From: Variovorax sp. PAMC 28711
GTDB taxonomy: Bacteria; Pseudomonadota; Gammaproteobacteria; Burkholderiales; Burkholderiaceae_C
Direction of reading: 5' to 3'
DNA length: 64,000 bases
NCBI RefSeq assembly: GCF_001577265.1
Contig: NZ_CP014517.1
Location: 2,471,001 to 2,535,000 of the forward strand
A program made the translations under genes and the position numbers. This document shows, piece by piece, positions 1 to 28,425 of this stretch. The number at the start of each line of letters is the position of its first letter. Position 1 is the first letter of the stretch. The notes under the pieces were generated by a model, which was not told where the DNA came from, did no database searches, and saw nothing but the letters and a program-made list of their open reading frames with translations.

Positions 1-958
1 AGCCGAGCACCCCGGCCATGGCGAGGAACACCCCGTTCGGCATGCCCGGAATCACGCCCAGCAAGGCCAGGATGCCGGCAGTGAGCCCGAGCACGCGCGG
101 CGAGGTGAAGAGCTGTTGCACGATCTGGTGGCCGACGTCTTCTTCCTTGCCCACGCGCGAGATCACCATCGCCGCGGCGACCGAAATCAGCAGGCCGGGA
201 ATCTGCGCGACCAGCGCGTCGCCCACGGCCAGCAGCACATAGGTATCTGCCGCCTTGCCGACCGCCAGGCCGTGCTGCAGCACGCCGATGGTGAAGCCGC
301 CGATCACGCTGATGACGAGGATCAGGATGCCCGCGATCGCGTCGCCGCGCACGAACTTCGAGGCACCGTCCATGGCGCCGAAGAAGTTGGCTTCTTCCGC
401 CACTTCGAGGCGGCGGCGGCGTGCTTCCTTCTCGTCGATCACGCCGGCGTTGAGGTCGGCGTCCACCGCCATCTGCTTGCCGGGCATCGCGTCCAGCGTG
501 AAGCGGGCCGACACTTCGGCGATGCGCTCGGCGCCCTTGGTCACCACCACGAAGTTGATGACCACCAGGATCGCGAACACGATCAAGCCCACCGCGAAAT
601 TGCCGCCGATGAGAAAGTGGCCGAACGCCTCGATCACCGCGCCGGCCGCGCCCGGGCCGGTGTGGCCTTCGAGCAGCACCACGCGCGTGGAGGCCACGTT
701 GAGCGACAGCCGCATCAGTGTGGTGAGCAGCAGCACCGACGGAAAAGCCGCGAAGTCGAGCGGCCGGATCATGTAGGCCGCCACCATCATCACCATCAGC
801 GCGACCGCGATGTTGATGGTGAAGAAGGTGTCGAGCAGCCAGGGCGGGATCGGCAGCACCATCAGCGCGAGGATGGCGACGACCAGCAGCGGCGCGGCAG
901 CGCGCTGGAACATCGCGCCCTGCGTGCCGAACCACTGACGAATGGCTTGCGGGTTCAT
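1..958 (-). CDS. flhA: Flagellar export gate protein FlhA (N-terminal part)
   Basis: FlhA is a membrane subunit of the flagellar type III export gate; it works with FlhB and FliP/FliQ/FliR, and its C-terminal domain docks export substrates. About 319 codons are present; the cytoplasmic domain lies beyond the left edge. The visible part is the multi-spanning membrane region. It carries the family motifs RLSLNVASTR and, in the first large loop, DAMPGKQMAVDADLNAG (the FHIPEP signature), then REATION-free hydrophobic helices typical of the family. The ATG overlaps the flhB stop as ATGA, so the two are translationally coupled. Truncated only by the window edge. Confidence 0.95.
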   Translation of the reverse strand, partial: MNPQAIRQWFGTQGAMFQRAAAPLLVVAILALMVLPIPPWLLDTFFTINIAVALMVMMVAAYMIRPLDFAAFPSVLLLTTLMRLSLNVASTRVVLLEGHTGPGAAGAVIEAFGHFLIGGNFAVGLIVFAILVVINFVVVTKGAERIAEVSARFTLDAMPGKQMAVDADLNAGVIDEKEARRRRLEVAEEANFFGAMDGASKFVRGDAIAGILILVISVIGGFTIGVLQHGLAVGKAADTYVLLAVGDALVAQIPGLLISVAAAMVISRVGKEEDVGHQIVQQLFTSPRVLGLTAGILALLGVIPGMPNGVFLAMAGVLG

Positions 959-2112
959 GCGGAGGTGCTTTCGGCAGACGGTTTCTTGTGGAGCGGATCG
1001 AGCTCGGGCGGCACGAAGGGCTCGGGCACGACCTGCGGCATCGGGGCCTCACCGCGCAGCGCGGCCTTCAGGCGATACACATAGGCCAGCACCTGCGCCA
1101 CCGCGGTGTAGAGGCTGGCGGGAATCGGCTGGTCGATCTCGGCGTGGGCATACAGCGCACGCGCCAGCATCGGCGACTGCACCACCGGGATCGAATATTC
1201 CTTCGCGATGTCGCGGATCTTCATGGCCAGCAGGTCGGCTCCCTTGGAGATGACCTGCGGCGCGCTCATTTCCTTTTCGTCGTAGCGCATCGCCACGGCA
1301 AAGTGGGTCGGGTTCATCAGGATGAAGTCGGCGCGCGGCACCGCGGTGATGCTGCTGCGCTGCGCCATGTCGCGCGCGTTGTTGCGCTGGCGTCCCTTGG
1401 TGTGCGGGTTGCCGTCGGCTTCCTTGTGTTCCTGCTGGATTTCCTGGTGCGACATCTTCAGCTTGGCGCGGTGGAAGTGGTTCTGCAGCGGCACATCGAC
1501 CAGTGCGGCGGCCAGCACCACCAGCAGCACCAGGCTCAGGCCGGTGACCAGCCAGTCGCCCATCGCGGCCAGCCCGGCCGGCGAGTGCTGCATCCCGAGT
1601 TGCGCGATGGTGTGCAGCGAGCCTGCCGCGAACAGATAGCCGACCGTGCCGAGCAGCCCCGACAGCAAGACCAGCTTGGCGACGTTCACGAGTTGCTGCT
1701 TGGAGAGCAGGTTGCCGATGCCCGAGAGCGGATTGAGCCGGTTCAGGTCGGGCGTGATCGACTTGAGGCTGGCGACCCAGCCGCCGGTAGCCACGGTGGT
1801 CGCGACGGCGGCGAACAGCACGATCGCCGCGAAGATCGCGCACGCGGTCAGCCCGACCGTGGTGTACGCGGTCAGCCGCGCGAGCATGTCGGCGGGTTGC
1901 TGCACGTTGGCGGCGTTGAAATGAAAAGCCTGGGCCAGGCCAGCGCGCATGCGCTCGAACGCGGTGGGCGCCAGCAGCAGCAATGCGACGCCGCCGGTGC
2001 CGAGCACGGCCAGGTGCGGCAGGTCTTTCGAACGCGCGGCCTGACCATCGCGACGCGCCTGGTCGAGCTTGCGTTGCGTGGCGGGGAGTTGACGATCCTG
2101 GCTGCTGGACAT
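955..2112 (-). CDS. flhB: Flagellar export switch protein FlhB
   Basis: Membrane component of the flagellar export gate that switches specificity from rod/hook to filament substrates after self-cleavage. The 385-residue protein matches the usual length. It has four hydrophobic segments in the first ~215 residues, a basic linker, and the autocleavage motif NPTH at residues 267-270 (cut between N and P). The charged N-terminus and the proline-rich tail are normal for the family. It is the first gene of flhB-flhA, overlaps flhA by 4 bp, and is preceded by a copy of the 39-bp flagellar promoter element. Confidence 0.97.
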   Translation of the reverse strand: MSSSQDRQLPATQRKLDQARRDGQAARSKDLPHLAVLGTGGVALLLLAPTAFERMRAGLAQAFHFNAANVQQPADMLARLTAYTTVGLTACAIFAAIVLFAAVATTVATGGWVASLKSITPDLNRLNPLSGIGNLLSKQQLVNVAKLVLLSGLLGTVGYLFAAGSLHTIAQLGMQHSPAGLAAMGDWLVTGLSLVLLVVLAAALVDVPLQNHFHRAKLKMSHQEIQQEHKEADGNPHTKGRQRNNARDMAQRSSITAVPRADFILMNPTHFAVAMRYDEKEMSAPQVISKGADLLAMKIRDIAKEYSIPVVQSPMLARALYAHAEIDQPIPASLYTAVAQVLAYVYRLKAALRGEAPMPQVVPEPFVPPELDPLHKKPSAESTSA

Positions 2113-2133: not shown

Positions 2134-2172
2134 TCATTGTCCGGAGCGGTGGCGCTTTCGAAGCGCCGATAA
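2134..2172 (-). promoter_or_regulatory. Flagellar promoter element, flhB copy
   Basis: Read on the minus strand, this is TTATCGGC, 21 nt, then CGGACAATGA. It lies 21 nt before the flhB ATG. The same two blocks with the same 21-nt gap occur before fliF and fliL. The downstream block resembles a -10 (ACAAT); no good -35 hexamer is visible, which suggests an activator-dependent promoter. The factor is not known; FlhDC is the obvious candidate by inference. Confidence 0.6.
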
Positions 2173-2188
2173 GCGGGTGCAGGGCCGG

Positions 2189-3193
2189 TCAATTCCCGGT
2201 GCTGCCGGTGCCGGCGATCTTTTGCGGCGCTTTCTCCGCGACCTTGTCGGCCGCCTTGCGGTCGCGCTGCACCTGGTCGGTGATGGCCTTCACCGCATCG
2301 GGCGCGTCCATGCGCGCGGTGCCGAGCAGCCGCGATTCGGCTTCGCGCGTGAGCACCGTGATGCTGATGCGGCGGTTCACCGGCGACAGCGCGTTGGTCT
2401 TGTCCATCAGGTCGCTGGCCGCGAGCCCGACCACGCGCACGAGCTTCTCGTCGGGCATGCCCGAGGCCACGAGTTCGCGGCGCGAGGCGTTGGCGCGGTC
2501 GGCCGAGAGTTCCCAGTTTCCGTAGCCGCGGTCGCCGTTGCCGTAGGGTGCGGCGTCGGTGTGGCCGGCCAGGCTCACGCGGTTTTCCACGCCGTTCAGC
2601 GAGGTGCCGATGGCGCGCAGGATGTCGCGCATGTAGGGCTTCACCAGCGCGGCGCCGGTGTCGAACATGGGGCGGTTCTGCGCGTCGACGATCTGGATCT
2701 CGAGGCCGTCGAGCGTCACTTCGAGGCGAACCTGCGATCTGAATTCCTTCAGGATCGGGCTCTCGTTGATGAGGCGCTCGATCTTCTGCTGCAGCGACGC
2801 CATGCGGCGCGCGTCCTGGCTGGCCGCCTCGCGCTTCATGTCGTCGTCGTTCATGCGCGCGCGGTCGTTGTTCTGGCCCTGCGACTTGCGCACCTGGCCG
2901 ACGCTGCGCGTGAGGTCGGTGCCGCCACCGGGAATGATGCTGGAGCTGTTGCCTGCGCCGGAGCCGCCCGGCATCGCCACCTGCAGCGGCGAATTGAAGT
3001 ACGAGGCGATGCCCTGCAGGTCGCCCTTGGCGGTCGAGCCGAGCAGCCACATGAGAAGGAAGAACGCCATCATGGCGGTCACGAAGTCGGCGTAGGCGAT
3101 CTTCCAGGCGCCACCGTGGTGGGCATGGGCCGTCTTCTTCACCCGTTTGATGATGATCGGCTGGAGCTTCTTGGTGCCGGGGCTGGTGGCCAT
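2189..3193 (-). CDS. motB: Flagellar motor stator protein MotB
   Basis: Stator subunit that anchors the MotA/MotB proton channel to peptidoglycan. The 334-residue protein has a basic N-terminus, one transmembrane helix at about residues 32-52 containing the channel aspartate D36 (motif YADFVTAMMAFFLLMWLL), a plug/linker region, and a C-terminal OmpA-like peptidoglycan-binding domain with LAGHTDA. It follows motA by 13 bp in the same orientation. The next gene downstream, flhB, has its own promoter element. Confidence 0.97.
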   Translation of the reverse strand: MATSPGTKKLQPIIIKRVKKTAHAHHGGAWKIAYADFVTAMMAFFLLMWLLGSTAKGDLQGIASYFNSPLQVAMPGGSGAGNSSSIIPGGGTDLTRSVGQVRKSQGQNNDRARMNDDDMKREAASQDARRMASLQQKIERLINESPILKEFRSQVRLEVTLDGLEIQIVDAQNRPMFDTGAALVKPYMRDILRAIGTSLNGVENRVSLAGHTDAAPYGNGDRGYGNWELSADRANASRRELVASGMPDEKLVRVVGLAASDLMDKTNALSPVNRRISITVLTREAESRLLGTARMDAPDAVKAITDQVQRDRKAADKVAEKAPQKIAGTGSTGN

Positions 3194-4125: not shown

Positions 4126-4163
4126 CGATTGGGCGCTGGGTCGGGCTTGGGCGCTCCATGGAA

Positions 4164-4185
4164 AAGGGCCCGTAGAAGGGCCCTT
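4164..4185 (-). terminator. Rho-independent terminator after flhC
   Basis: Perfect 8-bp arms AAGGGCCC and GGGCCCTT flank a 6-nt loop. On the minus strand the stem runs into TTTTC. It lies about 35 bp past the flhC stop and separates flhDC from motAB. Confidence 0.7.
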
Positions 4186-4220
4186 ATCGCGTCTTTGACC
4201 GTTGGCGCGGTGCGCAGAAT

Positions 4221-4760
4221 TCACTGCAAATGAATGCCACCTGCCGCCGCACCCTTGCCCGCCCGCGCCGGCGGCACGCACAGCCCGCAGACGTAATGCT
4301 TGGCGTTCTCGTAGGGCTCGGTCACGAAGTGGCCGCCGCAGCGGGAACACTTCGTCATGGCGAGCATGTTGTTCTCCATGAAGCGCACCAGGCGCCAGGC
4401 CCGCGTGATCGACAACTGGGGTTCCAACTCGCAGGAACTGATCTGCTCGGTGTAGAGCTGGTAGGCCTTGATGAGCACGTCGACCGGCTCGAGGTCGCTG
4501 GTCTTGGCCAGATAGCTGTGAATGTTCTGGAACAGCGATGCGTGGATGTTCGGCTGCCAGGTGAGGAACCAGTCGGTCGAGAACGGCAGCTGGCCCTTGG
4601 AAGGCGACTTGCCGGCCACCTCCTTGTAGAGGCGCAACAGGCGCTCGTAGGAGAGTTCGGTTTCGCTCTCGAGCACCTGCAGGCGTGCGCCGAGCCCGAT
4701 CAGGCTGACCGCGCGACCGATCTGTCGCGAATCGCCGAGGACGCTTTTGGATGTGGCCAT
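4221..4760 (-). CDS. flhC: Flagellar master transcription activator FlhC
   Basis: FlhC forms the FlhD4C2 activator that recruits sigma-70 RNA polymerase to class II flagellar promoters. The 179-residue length is near the family norm (~190). The zinc site is intact: Cys138, Cys141, Cys158 and Cys161 (CSRC and CGLC). It lies 24 bp downstream of flhD on the same strand and is followed by a terminator. Confidence 0.96.
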   Translation of the reverse strand: MATSKSVLGDSRQIGRAVSLIGLGARLQVLESETELSYERLLRLYKEVAGKSPSKGQLPFSTDWFLTWQPNIHASLFQNIHSYLAKTSDLEPVDVLIKAYQLYTEQISSCELEPQLSITRAWRLVRFMENNMLAMTKCSRCGGHFVTEPYENAKHYVCGLCVPPARAGKGAAAGGIHLQ

Positions 4761-4784: not shown

Positions 4785-5120
4785 TCAGGGCTGGATGGTC
4801 TCGGCGTAACGGCCGGCCATCACGATGCCCGCATGCAGGCGCGTCGTCGCGTCGTTCACCGTGCGGCCGCTGAGGTTGTGTTGCGTCAACAGGCTCCAGA
4901 CCATGTCGTCGTCGGCGCGGAAGCGGCACAGCAGCATGCTGCCCGAGGCGATCTTCATGATCTGCGCCGGGGACAACGCTTCGATCAGGTCGGCCGATTC
5001 TTCCGGCAGGCCGAGACGGAACAACGCCTGTGCCTTGTCCGCGCGGATGAGGCTCTGGGCCAGCATCAGGTAGGTGAGGTTGGCTTCACGAATCTCGGCA
5101 AGGATCTGTTCGCTGGTCAT
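4785..5120 (-). CDS. flhD: Flagellar master transcription activator FlhD
   Basis: Partner of FlhC in the master flagellar regulator. The start chosen gives 111 residues beginning MTSEQILAEIREANLTYLML, where the FlhD family starts; the longer upstream reading is AT-rich and does not look like protein. Helical content and the DKAQALFRLGL segment match FlhD. First gene of flhDC. Its upstream region is a long, unusually AT-rich non-coding stretch, as expected for a heavily regulated master promoter. Confidence 0.95.
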   Translation of the reverse strand: MTSEQILAEIREANLTYLMLAQSLIRADKAQALFRLGLPEESADLIEALSPAQIMKIASGSMLLCRFRADDDMVWSLLTQHNLSGRTVNDATTRLHAGIVMAGRYAETIQP

Positions 5121-9243: not shown

Positions 9244-11631
9244 GTGTTCCTCATGAAGCTTGCCTACGCCAATGACGGTTATGTGTGGCCTGTTCCGCCC
9301 GGTGCGGCCGCGCCACTGCTCGCGCTGGACGACAACGCGCCGACCTGCGAGATCGTCGGCCTCAACGCCCAGCGCGCCCAGGGCCGCCTGATCCGTTTCG
9401 TGCCGGCCGAACAGGTCGCCCACGTCCAGCTCAACCAGTTGCGCCGCCCGACCGCGCTGCGCTTCGACCATTTCCGCATGCTGGTGCTGTCGGAGTCGCT
9501 GCCGGTGGTGCCGGGCGCCGCCGGCCTCTTGACGTACGACATCGTCTGGGCCGACGGCTCCAGAAGCAGCGGCCAGAGCCTCGGCCGGCAGGAAATTCCG
9601 TTCGGCCTTTTTCTGTTCATGCTGACCGAGGACGGGGACGCGGTGCGCCGCGCCTTCGTGCCGCGGGTGAGCCTGCGCAGCGTGTCGTGGTCGGAGCCCG
9701 GAGACCCCGGGCGCGGCGGCGCGCCGCCCGAGCCGCCGCTCGACGCGATGCCGCCCGAGGTGACCACGCCGGAAGAGCTGCTGCTGCAACTCGCGGCCCA
9801 GAGCCGCATGCCCATCGTGCGCATCGGCCAGGCATTGAAGTCGCTCGGCATGGTCACCGAGGCGCAGCTCGCCGAGGCGCTGGAGAAGCAGCAGGTCGAC
9901 CGCGGCGTGCCGCTGGGCGAAATGCTGGTGCGCATGAACGTCGTGACGCGGGCCGACCTGCAGGTCGCGCTGGCTCGCAAGATGGGCTATCCGCTGGTCG
10001 ACCTCGATGCCTACCCGGTGGCGGCCGACGCGATGCGCAAGGTGCCGCACGAGGTCGCGCGCCGGCTCGAACTCATGCCGCTCATGCTGCACGAAGGGCG
10101 GCTGATCGTCGCGCTCGACGATCCGGCCAACCGGCGTTCGGCGCTCGACGAGATCGAGTTCGTGTCGCAAATGAAGGTGGTGGGCGTCATCGGCCAGTGC
10201 CGCGATCTGCCGGCCGTGCTGTTCAAGGCCTACGACAAGATCGGCGCGACCGCCCAGGGCAAGCCGATCTCGGGCGACCCGAGCCAACCCATCGAGTTCG
10301 ATCTGGCGGGCACCACCGAACTGCTGGAGACGCTCGAGAAAGAAGGCGTTTCGCGCTTCGACGAGGATTCGCCGATCGAGCAGTCGGACAACTCGCTGGT
10401 GCGGATGATCAACCGCATGATCCTGGAAGCGCACGCGCAGGGCGTGTCGGACATCCACGTCGAGAGCTATCCGGGCCGCGAAAAGATCCGCATCCGCTTT
10501 CGGCGCGACGGCCGGCTCTACACCTATCTGGAGCTGCCGCCGAACTACCGCAGCGCGCTGATCGCGCGCATCAAGATCATGTGCGACCTCGACATCAGCG
10601 AGAAGCGCAAGCCGCAGGACGGCAAGATCAATTTCTCCAAGTTCTCGCCGCAACACAAGCTCGAGTTGCGCGTTGCCACCATCCCGACCAACAACGGGCT
10701 CGAAGACGTGGTGATGCGCATCCTGGCGTCGGCCAAGCCGATCCCGCTCGACGCACTGGGGCTCTCGCCGAGCAACCTGGCGCAGTTCAAGACGGCGATC
10801 GAGCGGCCCTACGGCATGGTGCTGTGCGTCGGCCCCACGGGGTCGGGCAAGACGACCACGCTGCACTCGGCGCTGATGCACATCAACACGCCCGAGCGAA
10901 AGATCTGGACCGCGGAAGACCCGATCGAAATCACGCAGGCGGGTCTGCGGCAGGTGCAGGTCAATCCGCGCATCGACTGGACCTTTGCCAAGGCGCTGCG
11001 CGCCTTCGTGCGCGCCGACCCCGACGTGATCATGGTCGGCGAGATCCGCGACGAGGAGACCGCGAAGACGGCGATCGAGGCGTCGCTCACCGGCCACCTC
11101 GTGCTGTCCACGCTGCACACCAACAGCGCGCCCGAGACCGTCACGCGCCTGCTCGACATGGGCATGGACCCGTTCAACTTCGCGGACTCGCTGCTGGCCG
11201 TGCTCGCCCAGCGGCTGGTGCGCCGGCTGTGCCGCCACTGCACCACCCACCGTCCGGCCACGCCGGAAGAAGTCGAGGTGCTGCTGGCCGACTACATGCA
11301 CGCCTTCGGGCCGCACGACACCCCCGCCGCGCGCGACCCGGTGCGCAGCGGCTGGCTCGCGACCCATGGCCGCAACGGCGAATTGCCCGTCTACGAACCG
11401 AAGGGCTGCAAGCAATGCGACGACACCGGCTTCAAAGGTCGCGTCGGCATCCACGAGTTGATGGTGATCTCGCGCACCCTGCGCCGCCTGGTGCAGAACG
11501 GCGCGCGGGCCGAGGAGCTGCAGGAAACCGCCTTGTTGGAGGGCATGCGCACGCTGCGGCAAGACGGCATCGACAAGGTGCTGGCGGGCCACACCACCAT
11601 CGACGAAGTGCGCGCCACCAGCAACGTCTGA
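9244..11631 (+). CDS. GspE/PilB-family secretion ATPase with MshEN-type c-di-GMP domain
   Basis: An AAA-type ATPase of the type II secretion/type IV pilus extension family. Regions seen: an unassigned ~170-residue N-terminal region; an MshEN-like region (about 192-255) with RIGQALKSLGMVTEAQLAEA and PLGEMLVRMNVVTRADL, the repeat pattern that binds c-di-GMP in MshE; a linker; Walker A GPTGSGKTTT (530-539); Asp box and Walker B region with DVIMVGEIRDEE; and a four-Cys zinc site (CRHC, CKQC, about 663-726). The start is GTG; an in-frame ATG lies 9 bp downstream. It follows fliT by 64 bp on the same strand. No pilin, platform or secretin gene is nearby, so its partner machine is unknown. Confidence 0.85.
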   Translation: MFLMKLAYANDGYVWPVPPGAAAPLLALDDNAPTCEIVGLNAQRAQGRLIRFVPAEQVAHVQLNQLRRPTALRFDHFRMLVLSESLPVVPGAAGLLTYDIVWADGSRSSGQSLGRQEIPFGLFLFMLTEDGDAVRRAFVPRVSLRSVSWSEPGDPGRGGAPPEPPLDAMPPEVTTPEELLLQLAAQSRMPIVRIGQALKSLGMVTEAQLAEALEKQQVDRGVPLGEMLVRMNVVTRADLQVALARKMGYPLVDLDAYPVAADAMRKVPHEVARRLELMPLMLHEGRLIVALDDPANRRSALDEIEFVSQMKVVGVIGQCRDLPAVLFKAYDKIGATAQGKPISGDPSQPIEFDLAGTTELLETLEKEGVSRFDEDSPIEQSDNSLVRMINRMILEAHAQGVSDIHVESYPGREKIRIRFRRDGRLYTYLELPPNYRSALIARIKIMCDLDISEKRKPQDGKINFSKFSPQHKLELRVATIPTNNGLEDVVMRILASAKPIPLDALGLSPSNLAQFKTAIERPYGMVLCVGPTGSGKTTTLHSALMHINTPERKIWTAEDPIEITQAGLRQVQVNPRIDWTFAKALRAFVRADPDVIMVGEIRDEETAKTAIEASLTGHLVLSTLHTNSAPETVTRLLDMGMDPFNFADSLLAVLAQRLVRRLCRHCTTHRPATPEEVEVLLADYMHAFGPHDTPAARDPVRSGWLATHGRNGELPVYEPKGCKQCDDTGFKGRVGIHELMVISRTLRRLVQNGARAEELQETALLEGMRTLRQDGIDKVLAGHTTIDEVRATSNV

Positions 11632-11632
11632 G

Positions 11633-14266
11633 CTAGACCCCGGCCGCCTTGTGCGCCGGTGCCACCTGCACGTTGTTGCGCCCGGCACCCTTGGCCTGGT
11701 AGAGCATTTCGTCGGCCTTGCGGATCAGCGCCTGGCTGGTCATGTGGCCGCCCTCGTAGCACGCAACGCCGACACTGGCGCCGACGTTGAGCGTCCGTTC
11801 GTCCAGCACGAAGGGCTCGTTCAGGGATTTCAGGATCTTCTGCGCGACACGCTCGGCGTCTTCGGGATGACCGAGCGCCTGCAGGATCACCGTGAACTCG
11901 TCACCGCCGAGCCGGGCGACGAAATCGACATTGCGCGTCGCCGTCGACAGCCGGGCGCCCACGGCGCGCAGCAACGCGTCGCCGCACGGATGGCCCCAGC
12001 GGTCGTTGATCTGCTTGAAGCGGTCCAGGTCGACGTACAGCAGCGCCATGCCCGTGTCACGCAGCCTGGACTGGTTCATCGCATCGGCGAGCCGTGCCTC
12101 GAACGCGCTCCGGTTACCGAGGCCGGTGAGCGGATCCTGGCTGGCGAGCTCTGCCAGCCGCCGTTCCTCGCGCTTTTGCCGGGTGATGTCCAGCGTCACG
12201 GCATGGAAGCCGACGACCGCGAGTCCGTCGACGCTCCACTGCGGGATGTAGCTCACTTCGTAGCTCGCGTGGCCGCTGGAATTGACGGCTTCGCTCTCGA
12301 ACGTGACGCGCTCGCCGCCCAGGGCGGCGCGCACATGCGGAGCGATCGTGAGATAGCGCGTCTTGCCGAACAGCTGCTCGATCGTCTGGCCTTCGATCGA
12401 CTTGCGGCTGACGCCGAACACCGGCTCGTAGGCGAGGTTGGCGAACTGGTAGCGCTCGTCCGCGCCGATGTAGGCGACCCGCATCGGCAGAACATCGGCC
12501 ACGGTGCGAAGCCGCGCTTCGCTTTCGAAAAGCGCGCGCTTGTTGGCCTTGTCGGCCGAGATGTCTCGCATGATGGCCGAGAAGTGCTCGATCTTGCCGT
12601 TGCGATCGCGGTGTGCGATCACCATCTGGCTGACGGGAAACACCACGCGTTCGGCATTCCAGAGGTCCAGCTCGCCGACCCAGACGCCCTGCGCGGCGGC
12701 CGCCGGAACCACCTCGACGCTCAGGTGCGCGACCGTGGCCGGCGGATAGAAGTCGGCCATCGTCAGATCGGAAACGGGCGCGTCCGGTGCGATGCCGGTG
12801 ACGCGGCGCGCCGCGGGATTCATGTAGGTGAGCCGCCCGCTCTTGTTGAGTTGCACCACGTAGTCGGTGGTCGCCTCGAAGAACCCGGTGAGCGTGCGCA
12901 TCGCCTTTTCAGCGCGCGTGCGCTCGGTGATGTCCGACAGCGTGCCGACCTGGCCGGTGACCTGGCCGTCGGTCAGGATCGGCCGCATGTGCAGCGACAC
13001 CAGCACGTCCGTGCCGTCCAGCCGTCGCAGCCACCGCTTCACATGGAACGGCTGCGTCTGCTGCGTGAGCGCGAGCCACTGCCGCCACACCGCGTCCCGC
13101 TCCGGCTCGGCGACCAGGCTCAGCCAGCCGCGCGCGGCGTCGGCCCGTGGCAGGCCCTGAATTTCCAGGAAGGCGTCGTTCACGTACACCATGTGCCCCG
13201 ACATGTCGCAGCGGAAAAGACCCATCGGCGACGCGTCGGTGATGGTCGCAAGTTCGGTGCGCTGGTTGCGCAGTTCGGTCATGAGCGCATCGAACTCGCG
13301 CGCCAGGTCGCCCAGCTCGTCTTCGGCATGAACGTCGAGCGGCACCGTGCGGTCCGGCGCCTTGCGCAACGCATGGATCGCACCGTGCAGCCGGCCCAGC
13401 GGCCGCATCATCCACACGGTGCCGATCCACACCAGCACGCTGCTCAGCAGGGCCAGCAGCAGCATCTGGCCAAGCAAGGTCTCGCGCGCCCGTGCGAGCG
13501 GTGCGTAGGCCGCGGCCGCCGGCAACACCACGCGCAACACCCAGCCTGTGCTTCGGATGGGAACGCTGGCGATCAGATCGCCGACTTCGCTGCTTTCCCG
13601 ACTCGACGCCGGCTTGAGAACGCGCAGCGGGTCCGGATGCACCACGTAGACAGGCTGCGGCCCGGTGGTCTCGATGAGGAAATAGCCGCCTTCACCCACG
13701 CGCGCGCGGGACAGCTCGCCGAGCACATTGGCCTTGGAGAGGCTCAGGCCGCCACCGACCATGCCCGCCATGCCGGCTGCGCCATCGTGAACCGGAACCA
13801 CCATCACGATGGCGGGCTGGTCGGTGGTGCGGGCCTGGAGCGGCGCCGAAATGGCGGGCTCGCCGCTATCGCGCGCGCGCCGGAAGTAATCGCGGTCGGC
13901 GATGTTCAGCGCCTTCGGGTTGGGGGGATCGCTGGCCACGATGGCGCCGTCGGGGTCGATCAGCGCGAGGCCGTCGAACTTGGCGCGCAGCCCGCTGTCG
14001 GCCAGAAAGCGCTGTTGCGCCGACGAGGAGGCGAAGGTCGCAGCATTGGCGTGGCGAGCTTCCCGCGCGAGGATGTCCAGGTGGCTGGCGATCTTGTAGT
14101 CCACATCGCCGGCCGCCAGTTGCGCGAAACCCTGTTGTTGCTGCTGCATCAGGATGACGTAGCGGCTCGACAGGCCGCGGTACTGCCAGGCCCCCGTCGC
14201 TCCCACGGTGAAAAGGACCAGCGCGGTGGTCAGGAGCGCCGTCTTCGTGGGGAGCGTCAGGCGCAT
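11633..14266 (-). CDS. Membrane-bound sensor diguanylate cyclase (multi-PAS, GGDEF)
   Basis: Makes c-di-GMP from GTP. The start MRLTLPTKTALL gives 877 residues; upstream codons overlap the EAL gene and look non-coding. Order: a signal/TM helix (about 5-28), a periplasmic sensor region (about 30-245, dCache-like), a second TM, a HAMP-like linker, several PAS segments, then a GGDEF domain. The signature GGDEF (about 787-791) is intact and preceded by an RNVD inhibitory I-site five residues upstream, so product inhibition is likely. It starts 4 bp after the EAL gene stop. Tail-to-tail with the ATPase gene. Confidence 0.93.
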   Translation of the reverse strand: MRLTLPTKTALLTTALVLFTVGATGAWQYRGLSSRYVILMQQQQQGFAQLAAGDVDYKIASHLDILAREARHANAATFASSSAQQRFLADSGLRAKFDGLALIDPDGAIVASDPPNPKALNIADRDYFRRARDSGEPAISAPLQARTTDQPAIVMVVPVHDGAAGMAGMVGGGLSLSKANVLGELSRARVGEGGYFLIETTGPQPVYVVHPDPLRVLKPASSRESSEVGDLIASVPIRSTGWVLRVVLPAAAAYAPLARARETLLGQMLLLALLSSVLVWIGTVWMMRPLGRLHGAIHALRKAPDRTVPLDVHAEDELGDLAREFDALMTELRNQRTELATITDASPMGLFRCDMSGHMVYVNDAFLEIQGLPRADAARGWLSLVAEPERDAVWRQWLALTQQTQPFHVKRWLRRLDGTDVLVSLHMRPILTDGQVTGQVGTLSDITERTRAEKAMRTLTGFFEATTDYVVQLNKSGRLTYMNPAARRVTGIAPDAPVSDLTMADFYPPATVAHLSVEVVPAAAAQGVWVGELDLWNAERVVFPVSQMVIAHRDRNGKIEHFSAIMRDISADKANKRALFESEARLRTVADVLPMRVAYIGADERYQFANLAYEPVFGVSRKSIEGQTIEQLFGKTRYLTIAPHVRAALGGERVTFESEAVNSSGHASYEVSYIPQWSVDGLAVVGFHAVTLDITRQKREERRLAELASQDPLTGLGNRSAFEARLADAMNQSRLRDTGMALLYVDLDRFKQINDRWGHPCGDALLRAVGARLSTATRNVDFVARLGGDEFTVILQALGHPEDAERVAQKILKSLNEPFVLDERTLNVGASVGVACYEGGHMTSQALIRKADEMLYQAKGAGRNNVQVAPAHKAAGV

Positions 14267-14270
14267 CGCG

Positions 14271-14993
14271 TCACACGGCGTCCCAGTCCACGACCGGCAG
14301 CCTCCCCGTGGCGGGTTCTGCAAACAAATAGCCCTGGAACAGCGTGACGCCGAGTTTGCGCAAGGCCGTCAGTTCTTCGGCGGTTTCCACCCCTTCGGCG
14401 ATCACCCGGATGCCGAGCTCGTCGCAGGTGGCGACGAAGTCTTTCACGTTGTCGAGCTGGACGGGTTTCTGCTGGATGTCGCGCACGACGCTCATGTCGA
14501 TCTTCACCACGTCGGGCTGGAACGACGACAGCAACTCGAACGGCACAAAGCCGGTGTCGTGATCGTCGAGGGTCGACGTGAAGCCGTAGCGCTTGAAGGT
14601 GCGAAAAGCGGCCGCGAGGCCCGGCAGGTCGGCCACGCGTTCGCCCCCGGTGATCTCGAACATCAGCCACTTCACGGGGAAGCCGCAGGCCGAGGCGACG
14701 CGCATGGCGGTGCGAAAACACTCGGCCTGGCCGGAAAGATCGTCCGGGGTGACGTTCAGGCTGAGTCGCGTGTCCATGCCGAGCGCCGCAGCCATCTCGA
14801 TCGCCCGGGTCCGGCAGGCTTCGTGGAATGCGTAGCGCTCGTCCGGGCCGACGCGGCCCAGCACGTCCAGCGCGCCCTCGCCTTGCAGGCCGCGCACCAG
14901 CGCCTCGTACGCGAAGGTTTCGCGGCGCACGACGTCCACGATCGGCTGGAACGCCATCGTGAACTCGGGGAAGAGGGAATGGGGTTCGGTCAT
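14271..14993 (-). CDS. EAL-domain c-di-GMP phosphodiesterase
   Basis: A stand-alone EAL protein of 240 residues with no sensor or membrane domain; the family hydrolyses c-di-GMP to pGpG. Catalytic positions appear kept: EALVRG (30-35), N in LSLNV, E in FEITGGE, the Asp pair in TLDDHDTG, K in VKIDM, E in AEGVET and Q in QGYLFAEP. DDHDTG deviates from the usual DDFGTG loop, so activity could be altered. It lies 8 bp after fliE and 4 bp before the GGDEF gene on the same strand, suggesting one transcript. Confidence 0.92.
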   Translation of the reverse strand: MTEPHSLFPEFTMAFQPIVDVVRRETFAYEALVRGLQGEGALDVLGRVGPDERYAFHEACRTRAIEMAAALGMDTRLSLNVTPDDLSGQAECFRTAMRVASACGFPVKWLMFEITGGERVADLPGLAAAFRTFKRYGFTSTLDDHDTGFVPFELLSSFQPDVVKIDMSVVRDIQQKPVQLDNVKDFVATCDELGIRVIAEGVETAEELTALRKLGVTLFQGYLFAEPATGRLPVVDWDAV

Positions 14994-15001
14994 GGGCGGG
15001 G

Positions 15002-15310
15002 TCAGACTTGCATGTTCATGATGTCGGTATACGCCTGAACCATCCGGTTGCGCACATGCAGCGTGGCCTGGAAGCCGATTTGCGCTTTTTGCAGCGCGAC
15101 CATGGTCTGCTCCAGGCTGACGTTCGGATTTTCGAGCTGAACTTCGCGCTGCAGGGTGGAGGCGTCGCCCTGGGCGGCGCTCACGGCCTTGAGAGCGCCG
15201 GACAGGGCGCCGGCGAAGCCGGCTTCCTGGACGGCACCGGTGGCGGCGCGTGCAGCCCCGGCCGGACGCGACGTGAGCGGGGCGGTGACGGGGTTGAGGC
15301 GGAGGTCCAT
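15002..15310 (-). CDS. fliE: Flagellar hook-basal body protein FliE
   Basis: Junction protein between the MS ring and the rod. The start MDLRLNPVTAPL gives 102 residues, the family size; an upstream ATG would add only non-family sequence. The conserved C-terminal half (NPNVSLEQTMVALQKAQIGF and LHVRNRMVQAYTDIMNMQV) is clear. It diverges from fliF and heads the fliE-EAL-GGDEF unit. Confidence 0.96.
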   Translation of the reverse strand: MDLRLNPVTAPLTSRPAGAARAATGAVQEAGFAGALSGALKAVSAAQGDASTLQREVQLENPNVSLEQTMVALQKAQIGFQATLHVRNRMVQAYTDIMNMQV

Positions 15311-15372
15311 GGTCGTGATGCTAAAGGCGGTCGACCGTGGCATGGCCGGGAATTGAGCCGGAAAGGCGCGCC

Positions 15373-15411
15373 TTATCGGGCTTATGCGGAATGGGTCGGC
15401 CCGAATAATCG
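15373..15411. promoter_or_regulatory. Flagellar promoter element between fliE and fliF
   Basis: TTATCGGG, 21 nt, then CGAATAATCG, 27 nt before the fliF ATG. The block pair is itself a dyad (TTAT-CGGG against CCCG-A-ATAA), so it could serve both fliF and the divergent fliE. The spacing is identical to the copies before fliL and flhB; the CGAATAATCG block is identical to that at fliL. Confidence 0.65.
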
Positions 15412-15438: not shown

Positions 15439-17151
15439 ATGTCCGCCGTCGTCGAAATACCCGTCCCCCTCGCCACCACCGCCCCGTGGTCGCGCAAGCT
15501 TGCCAGCCTGGACTCGCGCCAGCGCATGCGTTTTGCCATCGGCGTCGTGTTGCTGGTCGGAGTGGCCATCGCGGCCATCGTGATCGGTCGCCAGCCCGAC
15601 TGGCGCGTGCTCTACGCCAACCTGGCCGACAAGGACGGCGGCGCCGTCATCGCCCAGCTCGCGCAGATGAACGTGCCCTACAAGTACTCCGAAGGCGGCG
15701 GCGCGGTGATGGTGCCGGCCGATCGCGTGCACGACCTGCGCCTGCGCCTGGCCTCGCAGGGCTTGCCCAAGGGCTCGGTCGCCGGCTTCGAGCTGATGGA
15801 GAACAACCGCTTCGGCATGACCCAGTTCCAGGAGAAGCTGAGTTTCCAGCGCGGGCTCGAAGGCGAGCTCACCCGCTCGATCCAGGCGCTCGGCTCGGTG
15901 CAGGCCGCCCGTGTGCACCTGGCGCTGCCCAATCAGAACGGCTTTTTTCGCGAGCAGCAGAAACCCACCGCTTCGGTGCTGCTGACGCTGCATCCAGGCC
16001 GCACGCTCGAGCGCAACCAGATCGCCGGCATCGTGCACCTGGTCGCCTCCAGCGTGCCGGAGCTGAACCCGGCCGCGGTGAGCGTGGTCGACGACACCGG
16101 CAAGCTGCTGTCGAACAACAACAACGAATCCGGCAGTGGCGCCGACGCCCAGCAACTGCAATACACCCAGCAGATCGAACAGCAATATGCGCGCCGCATC
16201 CTCGACATGCTGGAGCCCATGGTCGGCCGCCAGAACGTCAAGGCGCAGGTGACGGCCGACGTCGATTTCTCGCAGACCGAAGCCACGTCGGAAGAGCACA
16301 AGCCCAACCTGTCGGCCGACGCCAGCGCGGTACGCAGCCAGCAGACGGTGGAGAGCACCGGCGCGGCTGCCGTGGCCGCTGCGCCGTCGGGCGTGCCGGG
16401 TGCCACGTCGAACCAGCCGCCCGGCCCGTCTTCGGCGCCCGTCAACGGCGGTGCCGCACCGCTCACGCCAGCCGGCACCACGGCCACCGCCGGTGCAGCG
16501 GCCGCCCGGCCGCCGGGCAAGCGCGAGTCCACGACCAACTACGAGGTCGACAAGACCACCCGGACCGTGCGCAGCGCGACCGGCCAGATCAAGCGGCTGA
16601 GCGCGGCCGTCGTCATCAACTACCAGAGCGTGGTCGATGCCCAGGGCAGGCCCGGCGCGGCCACCGCGTTGTCGGCCCAGCAGATCGAGCAGATGACGGC
16701 GCTGGTGCGCGAGTCGATCGGCTTCAGCAAGGACCGCGGCGATTCGGTCAACCTCATGAACGCGCAGTTCCTCGCCGAGCGCAACGAGGTCGCTGAAGTC
16801 CCGATCTGGAAGAATCCGCAAACGCTCGACACGGCGCGCAGCTTCGCCTGGCCGATCGGCCTGGTGCTGATCGGCGCGATCGTGCTGCTCGGCCTGGTTC
16901 GCCCGGGCCTCAAGACCCTGGCGGCGGCCGCGCCGCCGCAGCTGCCGGGCAGCCAGCTCGACGCGATGCTGTCCGAAACGCCGCAGCGCCCCGCGCTCGC
17001 CTCCATCGCCGAAGCCCTGCCGCCGCCGGCCGCGCCCGAACAGGCCCGGCTCGAAGGCGCCCGCCAGATGGCGCGCCAGAACCCGGTCGCGGTCGCGAAC
17101 ATCGTGAAGACCTGGGTCAACGGCGACGAAGCCGCGGCCGCATCGGCCTGA
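15439..17151 (+). CDS. fliF: Flagellar MS-ring protein FliF
   Basis: Forms the MS ring, the base on which the flagellum assembles. The 570 residues carry a first TM helix (about 31-51), two ring-building (YscJ/FliF-type) domains with LPKGSVAGFELMENNRFGMT, a long Ala/Pro/Thr-rich periplasmic loop (about 310-360), a second TM (about 470-490), and a C-terminal tail that binds FliG. First gene of fliFGHIJK. Confidence 0.97.
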   Translation: MSAVVEIPVPLATTAPWSRKLASLDSRQRMRFAIGVVLLVGVAIAAIVIGRQPDWRVLYANLADKDGGAVIAQLAQMNVPYKYSEGGGAVMVPADRVHDLRLRLASQGLPKGSVAGFELMENNRFGMTQFQEKLSFQRGLEGELTRSIQALGSVQAARVHLALPNQNGFFREQQKPTASVLLTLHPGRTLERNQIAGIVHLVASSVPELNPAAVSVVDDTGKLLSNNNNESGSGADAQQLQYTQQIEQQYARRILDMLEPMVGRQNVKAQVTADVDFSQTEATSEEHKPNLSADASAVRSQQTVESTGAAAVAAAPSGVPGATSNQPPGPSSAPVNGGAAPLTPAGTTATAGAAAARPPGKRESTTNYEVDKTTRTVRSATGQIKRLSAAVVINYQSVVDAQGRPGAATALSAQQIEQMTALVRESIGFSKDRGDSVNLMNAQFLAERNEVAEVPIWKNPQTLDTARSFAWPIGLVLIGAIVLLGLVRPGLKTLAAAAPPQLPGSQLDAMLSETPQRPALASIAEALPPPAAPEQARLEGARQMARQNPVAVANIVKTWVNGDEAAAASA

Positions 17152-22047: not shown

Positions 22048-22087
22048 CCGCGGTCGAAGCACCGCTAAAGCGCCGCTTTCCCCCCTT

Positions 22088-22126
22088 TTATCGGGGCTTG
22101 GGAAAGGCGGCGGACTCGAATAATCG
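22088..22126 (+). promoter_or_regulatory. Flagellar promoter element, fliL copy
   Basis: TTATCGGG, 21 nt, CGAATAATCG, identical at both blocks and in spacing to the fliF copy. It overlaps an imperfect inverted repeat (CCGCTTTCCC at 22073-22082 with GGGAAAGGCGG at 22100-22110) that has no T-run. It marks the start of a second transcription unit fliLMNOPQR. Confidence 0.65.
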
Positions 22127-22191
22127 GTTCCATGCAGACCCCGCCGCGCCTCGCGCCAAGGGTCGTTCCTGCCGCAACCGAAGGAAATCCC

Positions 22192-22797
22192 GTGTCCGCC
22201 CCTGCTGCCACTGCCACTGCCCAGGCCCCCGAAGCGCCGAAGAAGGGTGGCAAGAAATCAATGCTGATGCTGATCGTCGTCGCCGTGGCGATGCTCGGCG
22301 GTGGCGCGGGCGGCGCCTGGTACTTCCTGCAGAAGCGCGCGGCCGCGGCCACCGACGACGAGCCCGTGGCCCACGCGCCGGCCGAGAAGCACGCCCCGAC
22401 CTACCTGCCGCTGGAGAGCATGGTCGTCAACCTGGCCGACGGCAGTGGCGAGCGCTTCGCGCAGATCGGCGTGACGCTCGACATCGACAACGAGAAGACC
22501 GCCGAGAAGATCAAGACCTACATGCCGGCCATCCGCAGCAGCGTGCTGATGCTGGTGTCGCAACGCACGTCGGAAGAGTTGCTCCGGCGCGACGGCAAGG
22601 AAAAGCTCGCGAACGACATCGTCACGGAGGTCTCGCGCGCCATCGGCTACGAGGTCGCCGATGCAGCACCCAAGGCCAAGCCGAAGGCCGATGCGGATGG
22701 CGACGCCGAAGAGTCTGCACCCAAGCGCAAGAAGAAGCGCGCGGTCGAGCCGAGTCCGATCAACGGCGTGCTGTTCTCCAGCTTCATCGTCCAGTAA
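22192..22797 (+). CDS. fliL: Flagellar basal body-associated protein FliL
   Basis: Inner-membrane protein that rings the stator and affects torque. GTG is chosen as start because AAGGAAA sits just upstream and the protein then begins MSAPAATATAQAPE, 201 residues; an in-frame ATG at 22132 would put the start 5 nt after the promoter element. One TM helix (about residues 24-44), then the periplasmic FliL domain (YLPLESMVVNLADG), with a basic KPK/KRKKK insertion near the C-terminus. Confidence 0.92.
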   Translation: MSAPAATATAQAPEAPKKGGKKSMLMLIVVAVAMLGGGAGGAWYFLQKRAAAATDDEPVAHAPAEKHAPTYLPLESMVVNLADGSGERFAQIGVTLDIDNEKTAEKIKTYMPAIRSSVLMLVSQRTSEELLRRDGKEKLANDIVTEVSRAIGYEVADAAPKAKPKADADGDAEESAPKRKKKRAVEPSPINGVLFSSFIVQ

Positions 22798-26701: not shown

Positions 26702-27331
26702 TCAGATCAGGTTGTTCCGAATCGCATAAACCGTCAGCGCCGCATTCGTCGGCAACCCCAGCTTTTCCATGACGCGTGTGCGGTACACGCTCACGGTCTT
26801 GGGGCTCAGCATCAGCTCTTCGGCGATATCGGAGAGACGCTGGCCCGAAGCGATCTTCACGAGCGTTTGGAGCTCTCGCTCCGACAACGCCGCGTGCGGC
26901 GCCTCGAGCGACGGGCGCGAGACCGAGTCGGCCAGCATCTGCGCCACTTCGGCCGTCACGTACTTGCGGCCTTGTGCGACGGTACGCGTGGCGGCGATGA
27001 GTTCGTCCGGGTCGCCGGCCTTGCTCACGTAGCCTTTGGCGCCGGCGCGCAGGCAGCGGATCGCGTACTGGTCGGCCGGGAACATCGACACCACGAGCAC
27101 CTTCACCGGCGAATCGCTTTCGTTCAGTGCGGTCATCACTTCGAGCCCGCCGCGGCCGGGCATGCTGAGGTCGAGCAGCAGCACGTCGCAGGGCGTGGAA
27201 CGCAGCAGTTCGCGCAGTTCCGCGTAGCCGCCGGCCTCGCCGGTGACCTTGATGTCGACCGCTTCCGACAGCGTGTCCCGAATGCCGCGACGCACCACCG
27301 CATGGTCGTCGCAGAGCACCACATGAATCAT
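26702..27331 (-). CDS. NarL/FixJ-family response regulator
   Basis: Two-component transcription factor of 209 residues: receiver domain with phosphoacceptor D54 (VLLLDLSMPG), acidic pair in CDDH, then a LuxR-type helix-turn-helix (about 147-205; LSERELQTLVKIASGQRLSD, SPKTVSVYRTRVMEKL). Its start overlaps the kinase stop by 4 bp, so the two form a cognate pair. Target genes unknown. Confidence 0.93.
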   Translation of the reverse strand: MIHVVLCDDHAVVRRGIRDTLSEAVDIKVTGEAGGYAELRELLRSTPCDVLLLDLSMPGRGGLEVMTALNESDSPVKVLVVSMFPADQYAIRCLRAGAKGYVSKAGDPDELIAATRTVAQGRKYVTAEVAQMLADSVSRPSLEAPHAALSERELQTLVKIASGQRLSDIAEELMLSPKTVSVYRTRVMEKLGLPTNAALTVYAIRNNLI

Positions 27332-28425
27332 GATTCTTTAACTTTCTCGCCCAGCGGCACGGACAGGATGATCGACGTGCCCACGCCGCCGTGGTTGGTG
27401 ATGTCGAGCCAGCCGTCGACGGTGCGCGCACGTTCGCCGAGGCCCTTCAAGCCGAAGGTCTTGGGCTTGTCGAGTTCGGCGCGGGTCAGGCCGCGGCCGT
27501 TGTCGGTGATCTCCAGCGTGAGCACGCTCTCGCCATCGGTGAGGTCGATGCGCACTTCGCTGCAATCGGCGTGCTTGGCGATGTTGGTCAGCGCCTCCTG
27601 CGCGGTGCGGTAGGCCACCAACTGCACTGCGTCGGGCGCATCGATGGTTTCCTGCGTGGCGGTGAAGGCGGTCTTGACGCCGGTGCGCCGCTCGAAGGCG
27701 GTGGCCAGCCAGTCGACAGCGGCCACGATGCCCTGGTCGAGGATCGGCGGACGCAGGTCCTGCACGATGCGCTGGCATGCGCCGATGGCGTGCTGCAGTG
27801 TTTCAGTGGCGCCGTAGACGTGATCGAGCACGGCAGGGTCGCTGGCATGCCGGCCGATCCAGGCCAGGTCGAAGTTCAGTGCCGCGAGCCAGCCACCGAT
27901 CTCGTCGTGCACTTCGCGTGCGATCGAATGGCGCTCCTCTTCGATGCAAGACTGCAGGTGTTCGTTGAGTTCGGCCGAACGGCGCATCGAGCCGGCCAGC
28001 TCGACCTGCAAATGTTCCTTGGCGGTGCGCATCTTGTTCACGTCGCGGGCCCGCAGGATGGCGCGCGGCAGCTGCTCCATCGCGTCCTTGCGCACGAAGT
28101 CGCTCACCCCACGGCGCACCGCATCGATCGCATCGGCCTCGCTCGCGGAGCCGGACAACACAATGAGCGGTGGCGGCACGCCTGGCAGCGCCAGCAATTC
28201 CTCCCACACCGCCATCGCGGTAAAGCCCACGCAGTGGTAAGCGCACACGACCACGTCGCAGTCCTGGCGCGACATCCGGTCCCTGAACGCTGCCAGCGTC
28301 TCCACGCGGGAGAGGGTTCCTCCCGAACGGTCCAGCCCGAGGGCATCGCAAACCCGGCGATGGTCGGTTTCGGACGGCTCGACGTGCAGGATGCGCAGCT
28401 GTCGAACGAATTGGGCGGTTAACAT
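27328..28425 (-). CDS. Cytosolic hybrid-type histidine kinase with degenerate receiver domain
   Basis: 365 residues, no membrane segment. The N-terminal ~125 residues have a receiver fold, but the phosphoacceptor Asp is replaced (DVVVCAYH; Ala62), so it is a pseudo-receiver that probably senses by protein contact. Then a HisKA_3 dimerisation helix with H173 (SIAREVHDEIGGWLAALNF) and a HATPase domain (TAQEALTNIAKHA, DNGRGL, GLKGLGERA). Coupled to the downstream NarL-type regulator. Confidence 0.9.
   Translation of the reverse strand: MLTAQFVRQLRILHVEPSETDHRRVCDALGLDRSGGTLSRVETLAAFRDRMSRQDCDVVVCAYHCVGFTAMAVWEELLALPGVPPPLIVLSGSASEADAIDAVRRGVSDFVRKDAMEQLPRAILRARDVNKMRTAKEHLQVELAGSMRRSAELNEHLQSCIEEERHSIAREVHDEIGGWLAALNFDLAWIGRHASDPAVLDHVYGATETLQHAIGACQRIVQDLRPPILDQGIVAAVDWLATAFERRTGVKTAFTATQETIDAPDAVQLVAYRTAQEALTNIAKHADCSEVRIDLTDGESVLTLEITDNGRGLTRAELDKPKTFGLKGLGERARTVDGWLDITNHGGVGTSIILSVPLGEKVKES

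Follow-up and report, generated by a model that had tools for sequence, protein, structure and literature searches.

Candidate FlhDC-dependent class II flagellar promoters in Variovorax sp. PAMC 28711 with a near-fixed distance between box and -10 element

For the FlhDC box of enteric bacteria a long consensus made of two 16-bp inverted repeats, AAYGSSNNAAATAGCG-N10-12-CGCTATTTNNSSCRTT, has been given, and the alpha C-terminal domain was reported to be essential (PMC9962212, partial text). A refined E. coli consensus, ANNAN18TN(A/T)TN6(A/T)T, is quoted in PMC12888815 (partial text), where an FlhDC box was already reported, in 2026, in Acidovorax delafieldii LR140. In vitro, a single FlhD4C2 site of E. 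coli activates two divergent sigma-70 promoters, flgAP1 and flgBP1 (PMC12781870, partial text), and in Burkholderia glumae FlhDC activates flagellar genes (PMC3885665, partial text).

We studied a window of 64,000 bp (the whole stretch of DNA analysed) of Variovorax sp. PAMC 28711, a member of the Comamonadaceae; positions are those of the window unless given as genome coordinates. The closest relatives of its FliF, among the best 80 of 570 loci, were from Xenophilus and Variovorax. The genes that adjoin the element or encode its proposed activator were the following:

955-2112, minus strand: flhB (Pfam FlhB)
4221-4760, minus strand: flhC (Pfam FlhC, 2.1e-80; sole match in the genome), subunit of the proposed activator
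4803-5120, minus strand: domain extent of flhD (Pfam FlhD; sole match in the genome, G000:C1:2475803-2476120), subunit of the proposed activator
15002-15310, minus strand: fliE (Pfam FliE in a longer ORF; start re-assigned from relatives to the ATG at 15310)
15439-17151, plus strand: fliF (Pfam YscJ_FliF and YscJ_FliF_C)
22132-22797, plus strand: fliL (Pfam FliL)

The flhD and flhC genes adjoin the flagellar cluster, and MotA and MotB were also named by Pfam in the surroundings. Behind flhB, on the same strand, ORFs were read as flhA (named by position), flhF (by its SRP54 domain) and, beyond the window start, a sigma-factor gene of the sigma-70 family (by its sigma-70 domains), which is probably fliA. 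The flgB gene lies at genome coordinates 2465254-2465700 with flgA divergent from it; the start of flgA was placed by eye, and the ORF scanned at flgA had no Pfam match. As judged by eye, the real start of fliL may be a GTG after the Shine-Dalgarno-like GAAGGAAA near 22193. On the minus strand at 4162-4187, GGGCCC-N6-GGGCCC followed by TTTT forms a putative hairpin, probably the flhDC terminator; read on the opposite strand, it resembles the FlhDC consensus (match at 4162-4195). Between fliT and fliE (9244-14993) there are genes for an MshEN/T2SSE ATPase, a dCache-PAS-GGDEF protein and an EAL protein, which suggests that c-di-GMP signalling genes adjoin the flagellar ones. Farther to the right, the minus strand carries an apparent orthologue of Acidovorax citrulli AcrR at 26702-27331, convergent with fliR, and beside it a HisKA_3 kinase gene at 27328-28425.

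The first-pass annotation of this DNA had described the word TTATCGG followed, at constant spacing, by a second block before flhB, fliF and fliL; when re-read in the sequence, the three copies, their spacing and their positions were as given. A pattern search with TTATCGG-N22-CGRAYAAT found exactly three matches in the window, before these same genes (mean of 0.00 exact matches in 100 shuffles of the window), and the whole 4.3-Mb genome held the same three copies at 0 mismatches, against about 0.005 expected if bases are assumed independent. With two mismatches allowed, six further genome matches appeared, versus 0 for the reversed pattern. A genome-wide search had been proposed that should also hit flgB and flgA; the pattern as written matches neither. 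Among related loci, 12 of 80 had the exact N22 pattern and 17 of 80 had it with N22-24. Three relatives carried the pattern (N22-23) away from fliF (L028:6741, L030:6853 and L015:2164), and in the first two, both Acidovorax, this copy lies about 3 kb upstream of fliF.

Each copy is very probably an FlhDC-dependent class II flagellar promoter. On sequence grounds, the first block, TTATCGG, is the right (promoter-proximal) half-site of a putative FlhDC box, and the second a -10 hexamer of the sigma-70-like type. The left half starts 22 bp upstream of TTAT at all three copies, as AATTGA at flhB and fliF and as TAAAGC at fliL; the 39-bp interval formerly taken for the whole element was thus incomplete, with a conserved left half upstream of it. 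The boxes were numbered with the first T of TTAT as T23 of the refined E. coli consensus, which puts A1 22 bp before it; for flgB, fliE and some of the E. coli boxes the register was our own choice. The predicted elements are:

2136-2141, minus strand: flhB -10, GACAAT, at offset 31
2161-2194, minus strand: FlhDC box of flhB, 6/7 of the refined consensus
15318-15323, minus strand: fliE -10, TAGCAT, at offset 31 counted from the mirrored box position
15351-15384, plus strand: FlhDC box of fliF, mirrored for fliE (A1 at 15351, right half T23-T34 at 15373-15384; 5/7; conserved in 81 aligned upstreams)
15404-15409, plus strand: fliF -10, AATAAT, at offset 31 (counted from the first T of TTAT)
22066-22099, plus strand: FlhDC box of fliL, 6/7 of the refined consensus
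22119-22124, plus strand: fliL -10, AATAAT, at offset 31 (31-33 in relatives)

In all three copies the -10 hexamer starts 31 nt after T23. The flgA box matched the refined consensus at 7/7 positions; weaker scores were those of fliE (mirrored, 4/7) and of flgB (3/7 in its first register), although flgB read one base further on gave 6/7 with CATAAT at offset 31. Taken together, the six class II promoters of this genome had their -10-like hexamer at offset 31 in five cases and at 32 in one (flgB), and none besides these between offsets 18 and 51. The -10 match was 4-5/6 (flgB read as CATAAT) and the best -35 match only 2-4/6. The element had been said to be unlike the enteric FlhDC box, a statement that the data do not support: fliF, fliL, flhB and flgA score 5-7/7 against the refined consensus, and the -10 offset is that of E. 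coli fliF, fliL and fliA. The claim that the copies mark class II operons was borne out for flhB, fliF and fliL, for fliE through the mirrored half, and for flgA/flgB with a diverged copy. The dyad noticed between fliE and fliF is indeed present, but extends outside 15373-15411: the palindrome AAGGCGCGCCTT, 12 bp long, has its centre at 15368/15369, and the fliE/fliF axis falls at about 15363.5, midway between the -10-fixing box positions 15354 and 15373.

In the mechanism that we propose, FlhD4C2 would bind the inverted-repeat box at about -65 to -32, the TTATCGG half-site would occupy the place of a -35 element, and sigma-70 RNA polymerase would read AATAAT or GACAAT as -10, with transcription starting some 7 nt past the second block. 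The spacing would be constant because the position of the activator is fixed relative to the polymerase. At fliE/fliF, a single dyad would serve two divergent -10 elements. FlhDC binding, sigma-70 use, activation and start sites are what we infer here; sequence, conservation, geometry and co-occurrence with FlhC were computed directly.

The upstream regions of fliF were aligned for 81 loci (80 relatives, the best 80 of 570 loci, plus the window). They keep the left half, the right half and both -10 elements, with conserved blocks GGGAA.TGATGG, CTTATC and CCGAATAATCG, and ATCCTAG on the fliE side. The fliF -10 was AATAAT in 76/81, and its offset was 31 in 60 and 32 in 21. On the opposite strand, counted from the mirrored box position, TANNAT was at offset 31 in 62 of the 81 loci, at 32 in 16 and at 33 in 3, and offsets 20 to 39 held no other copy. 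Of 72 fliL rows, 59 had a hexamer matching at least 4/6 at 31-33; the other 13 lacked a good -10 there, in part because the stretch ends early, and 3 rows had no TTAT-like word. The box-to-(-10) offset is accordingly 31 for the three copies here and 31-33 across the wider group, and the spacing of exactly 21 nt first described holds in this genome but widens to 21-23 in the group. The element had been offered as a possible class II signature of the lineage. TTATCGG is shared by the three copies here, but GG after TTATC is not general: in the aligned promoters the right half at fliF reads TTATCGG in 21/81, TTATCC in 35/81 and TTATCG in 23/81, and TTATCGG stands in 1 of 69 aligned fliL promoters.

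Among 200 genomes of the order Burkholderiales, FlhC was matched in 75 and FliF in 139. We compared 40 FlhC-positive (E < 1e-70) with 40 FlhC-negative genomes, scoring 511 bases around each fliF start with a weight matrix of box plus -10 built from the 43-sequence alignment A1, with 8 shuffles per region. Median scores were 16.1 in FlhC-positive and -6.0 in FlhC-negative genomes (shuffled means -6.2 and -6.1), a difference with a Mann-Whitney p of 6.5e-12 among species that are related. A score above 15 was reached by 24/40 FlhC-positive versus 2/40 FlhC-negative genomes and by 0 shuffled sets; above 6 the figures were 38/40 versus 6/40, but about 18 of the 80 regions had a shuffle above 6. 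When the box was placed blind to the -10, a hexamer was found at 31-33 in 34/40 versus 2/40 genomes; the 34 distinct FlhC-positive genomes had it at 31, 32 and 33 in 9, 13 and 12 cases. By eye, the fliF upstream of FlhC-negative genomes often resembles fliE coding sequence, so that operon layout and descent confound the comparison; because of related species and operon layout, the 80 genomes cannot be counted as independent tests. A strong FlhDC-type fliF box was nevertheless present in G023 and G195 (loci L156 and L191), both FlhC-negative; a targeted FlhC search in these two gave nothing convincing, and an assembly gap or a regulator replacement may account for them. An order-wide search with profile R1 matched 86 of 200 genomes at E <= 0.1, and at E <= 0.005 it matched 18 (14/75 FlhC-positive and 4/125 others), a modest co-occurrence. 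Location, geometry, conservation and FlhC co-occurrence all support the class II reading put forward at the outset.

Within the genome, profile R1 recovered fliF, fliL and flhB together with two other weak matches (E 0.086 and 0.19), and missed flgA/flgB. A loose consensus scan of 144 kb gave 7 matches at offset 31 (mean 1.78 and largest 5 in 100 shuffles), 2 of them outside class II promoters. Other offsets gave 0-9 matches and spacers of 8-29 gave 5-11, the box spacer not being preferred; because other offsets and spacers give similar counts, the scan was rejected as proof for being unspecific. Compared by eye with the long enteric consensus, the left half is present with diverged bases and there is no literal match. 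We also dropped the idea of a contracted box whose spacer would be 0-2 bp, the left half being at its normal distance in the refined E. coli register.

The box might instead be bound by the LuxR-family response regulator encoded beside fliR, the apparent AcrR orthologue, rather than by FlhDC, which we judge very improbable. This regulator of 209 aa occupies the same place as AcrR, convergent with fliR, and lies downstream of fliR in 15 of the 19 relatives whose locus reaches far enough; in an acrR mutant flagella were lost and most of the listed flagellar genes were expressed less, but flhD and flhC mRNA were also reduced (PMC7060138, partial text), so that AcrR can act upstream. The geometry common to E. 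coli fliF, fliL and fliA also argues against AcrR, as do those of the compared genomes in which the two regulators separate: scores above 6 were found in 7/8 FlhC-positive genomes without an AcrR-like match (AcrR-like being E <= 1e-50) and in 2/8 FlhC-negative genomes with one (p 0.04), the cut-offs of this comparison having been chosen afterwards.

Still less probable is a role of the blocks as promoter elements of sigma-28 or sigma-54. The sigma-28 promoter consensus is TAAA-N15-GCCGATAA and that of sigma-54 (FleQ-type) TGGCA-N5-TTGCA, and TTATCGGC is the sigma-28 -10 box in reverse complement, a literal identity seen at the flhB copy. Sigma-28 promoters do overlap the FlhDC site at E. coli flgA/flgB (PMC12781870, partial text). 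Against this, TTATCGG is present in only 21/81 fliF promoters, hence the sigma-28 identity is not kept, and the poor fit to both factors noted earlier was reproduced, the best scores at the three sites being 8/12 for sigma-28 and 7/10 for sigma-54, against these consensus sequences and with no shuffled control. One FleQ-domain match (23.4 bits, cut-off 22) lies about 130 kb outside the window; Xanthomonas-type FsnR/FleQ regulation was dropped, the genome being that of a Comamonadaceae with FlhDC. A chance repeat or a recent duplication of an intergenic segment would agree with there being only three exact copies, but we give it almost no weight: shuffles averaged 0.00 matches, the copies differ from one another between the blocks, and relatives keep the blocks at orthologous positions.

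Returning to the FlhDC-dependent promoters, the end of the putative fliE -10 lies 7 nt ahead of the ATG of fliE (15308-15323, minus strand), and a leaderless fliE mRNA is therefore predicted. Of 81 loci, 10 have their first fliE ATG at this distance of 7 and 54 have it 30-36 nt away; the former are the window, the Xenophilus and Variovorax loci L010-L012, L014, L015 and L044, and also L013, L016 and L019. This predicted leaderless mRNA and the shared fixed geometry are the fresher details of the present analysis. We give an even chance to a wider proposal, that FlhDC promoters from beta- to gammaproteobacteria obey a hard geometric rule in which the promoter-proximal half-site is held firmly at 31-33 nt from the -10 and takes the place of the -35, fliE/fliF being symmetric on both strands with one FlhD4C2 ring positioned for two polymerases. 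Among the titles and abstract openings listed by literature searches, none described a fixed box-to-(-10) distance. The results give a precise class II signature (box, near-fixed distance and -10) for FlhC-bearing Burkholderiales, correct the view of an unknown class II element in this lineage, and offer a simple test of the contact between FlhD4C2 and polymerase: a half-turn shift of the spacing should kill the promoter.

Compared with described systems, A. delafieldii LR140, of the same family, has a 34-bp motif before the same class II genes; that motif is the box only, and the main-text parts covered contain neither the box-to-(-10) distance nor a mirrored fliE element (PMC12888815, partial text). 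One box for divergent genes occurs here at fliE/fliF and in E. coli at flgA/flgB (PMC12781870, partial text). The positions of the refined consensus are common to the E. coli box and to this one, and FlhDC promoters of E. coli likewise lie upstream of flhB, fliL, fliE/fliF and flgA/flgB. The half-sites are GC-richer here (TTATCGG versus TATTT in E. coli), and the gene for the sigma factor follows flhF, while E. coli fliA carries a separate box. Six E. coli promoters had the hexamer at offset 31 in 3 and 32 in 2, with single matches at 20, 34, 44 and 46, and in E. coli K-12 fliF, fliL and fliA the -10-like hexamer stands at 31, as here. The element thus appears to be a known kind of promoter, a switch of ordinary design, though well conserved, ahead of the first flagellar genes.
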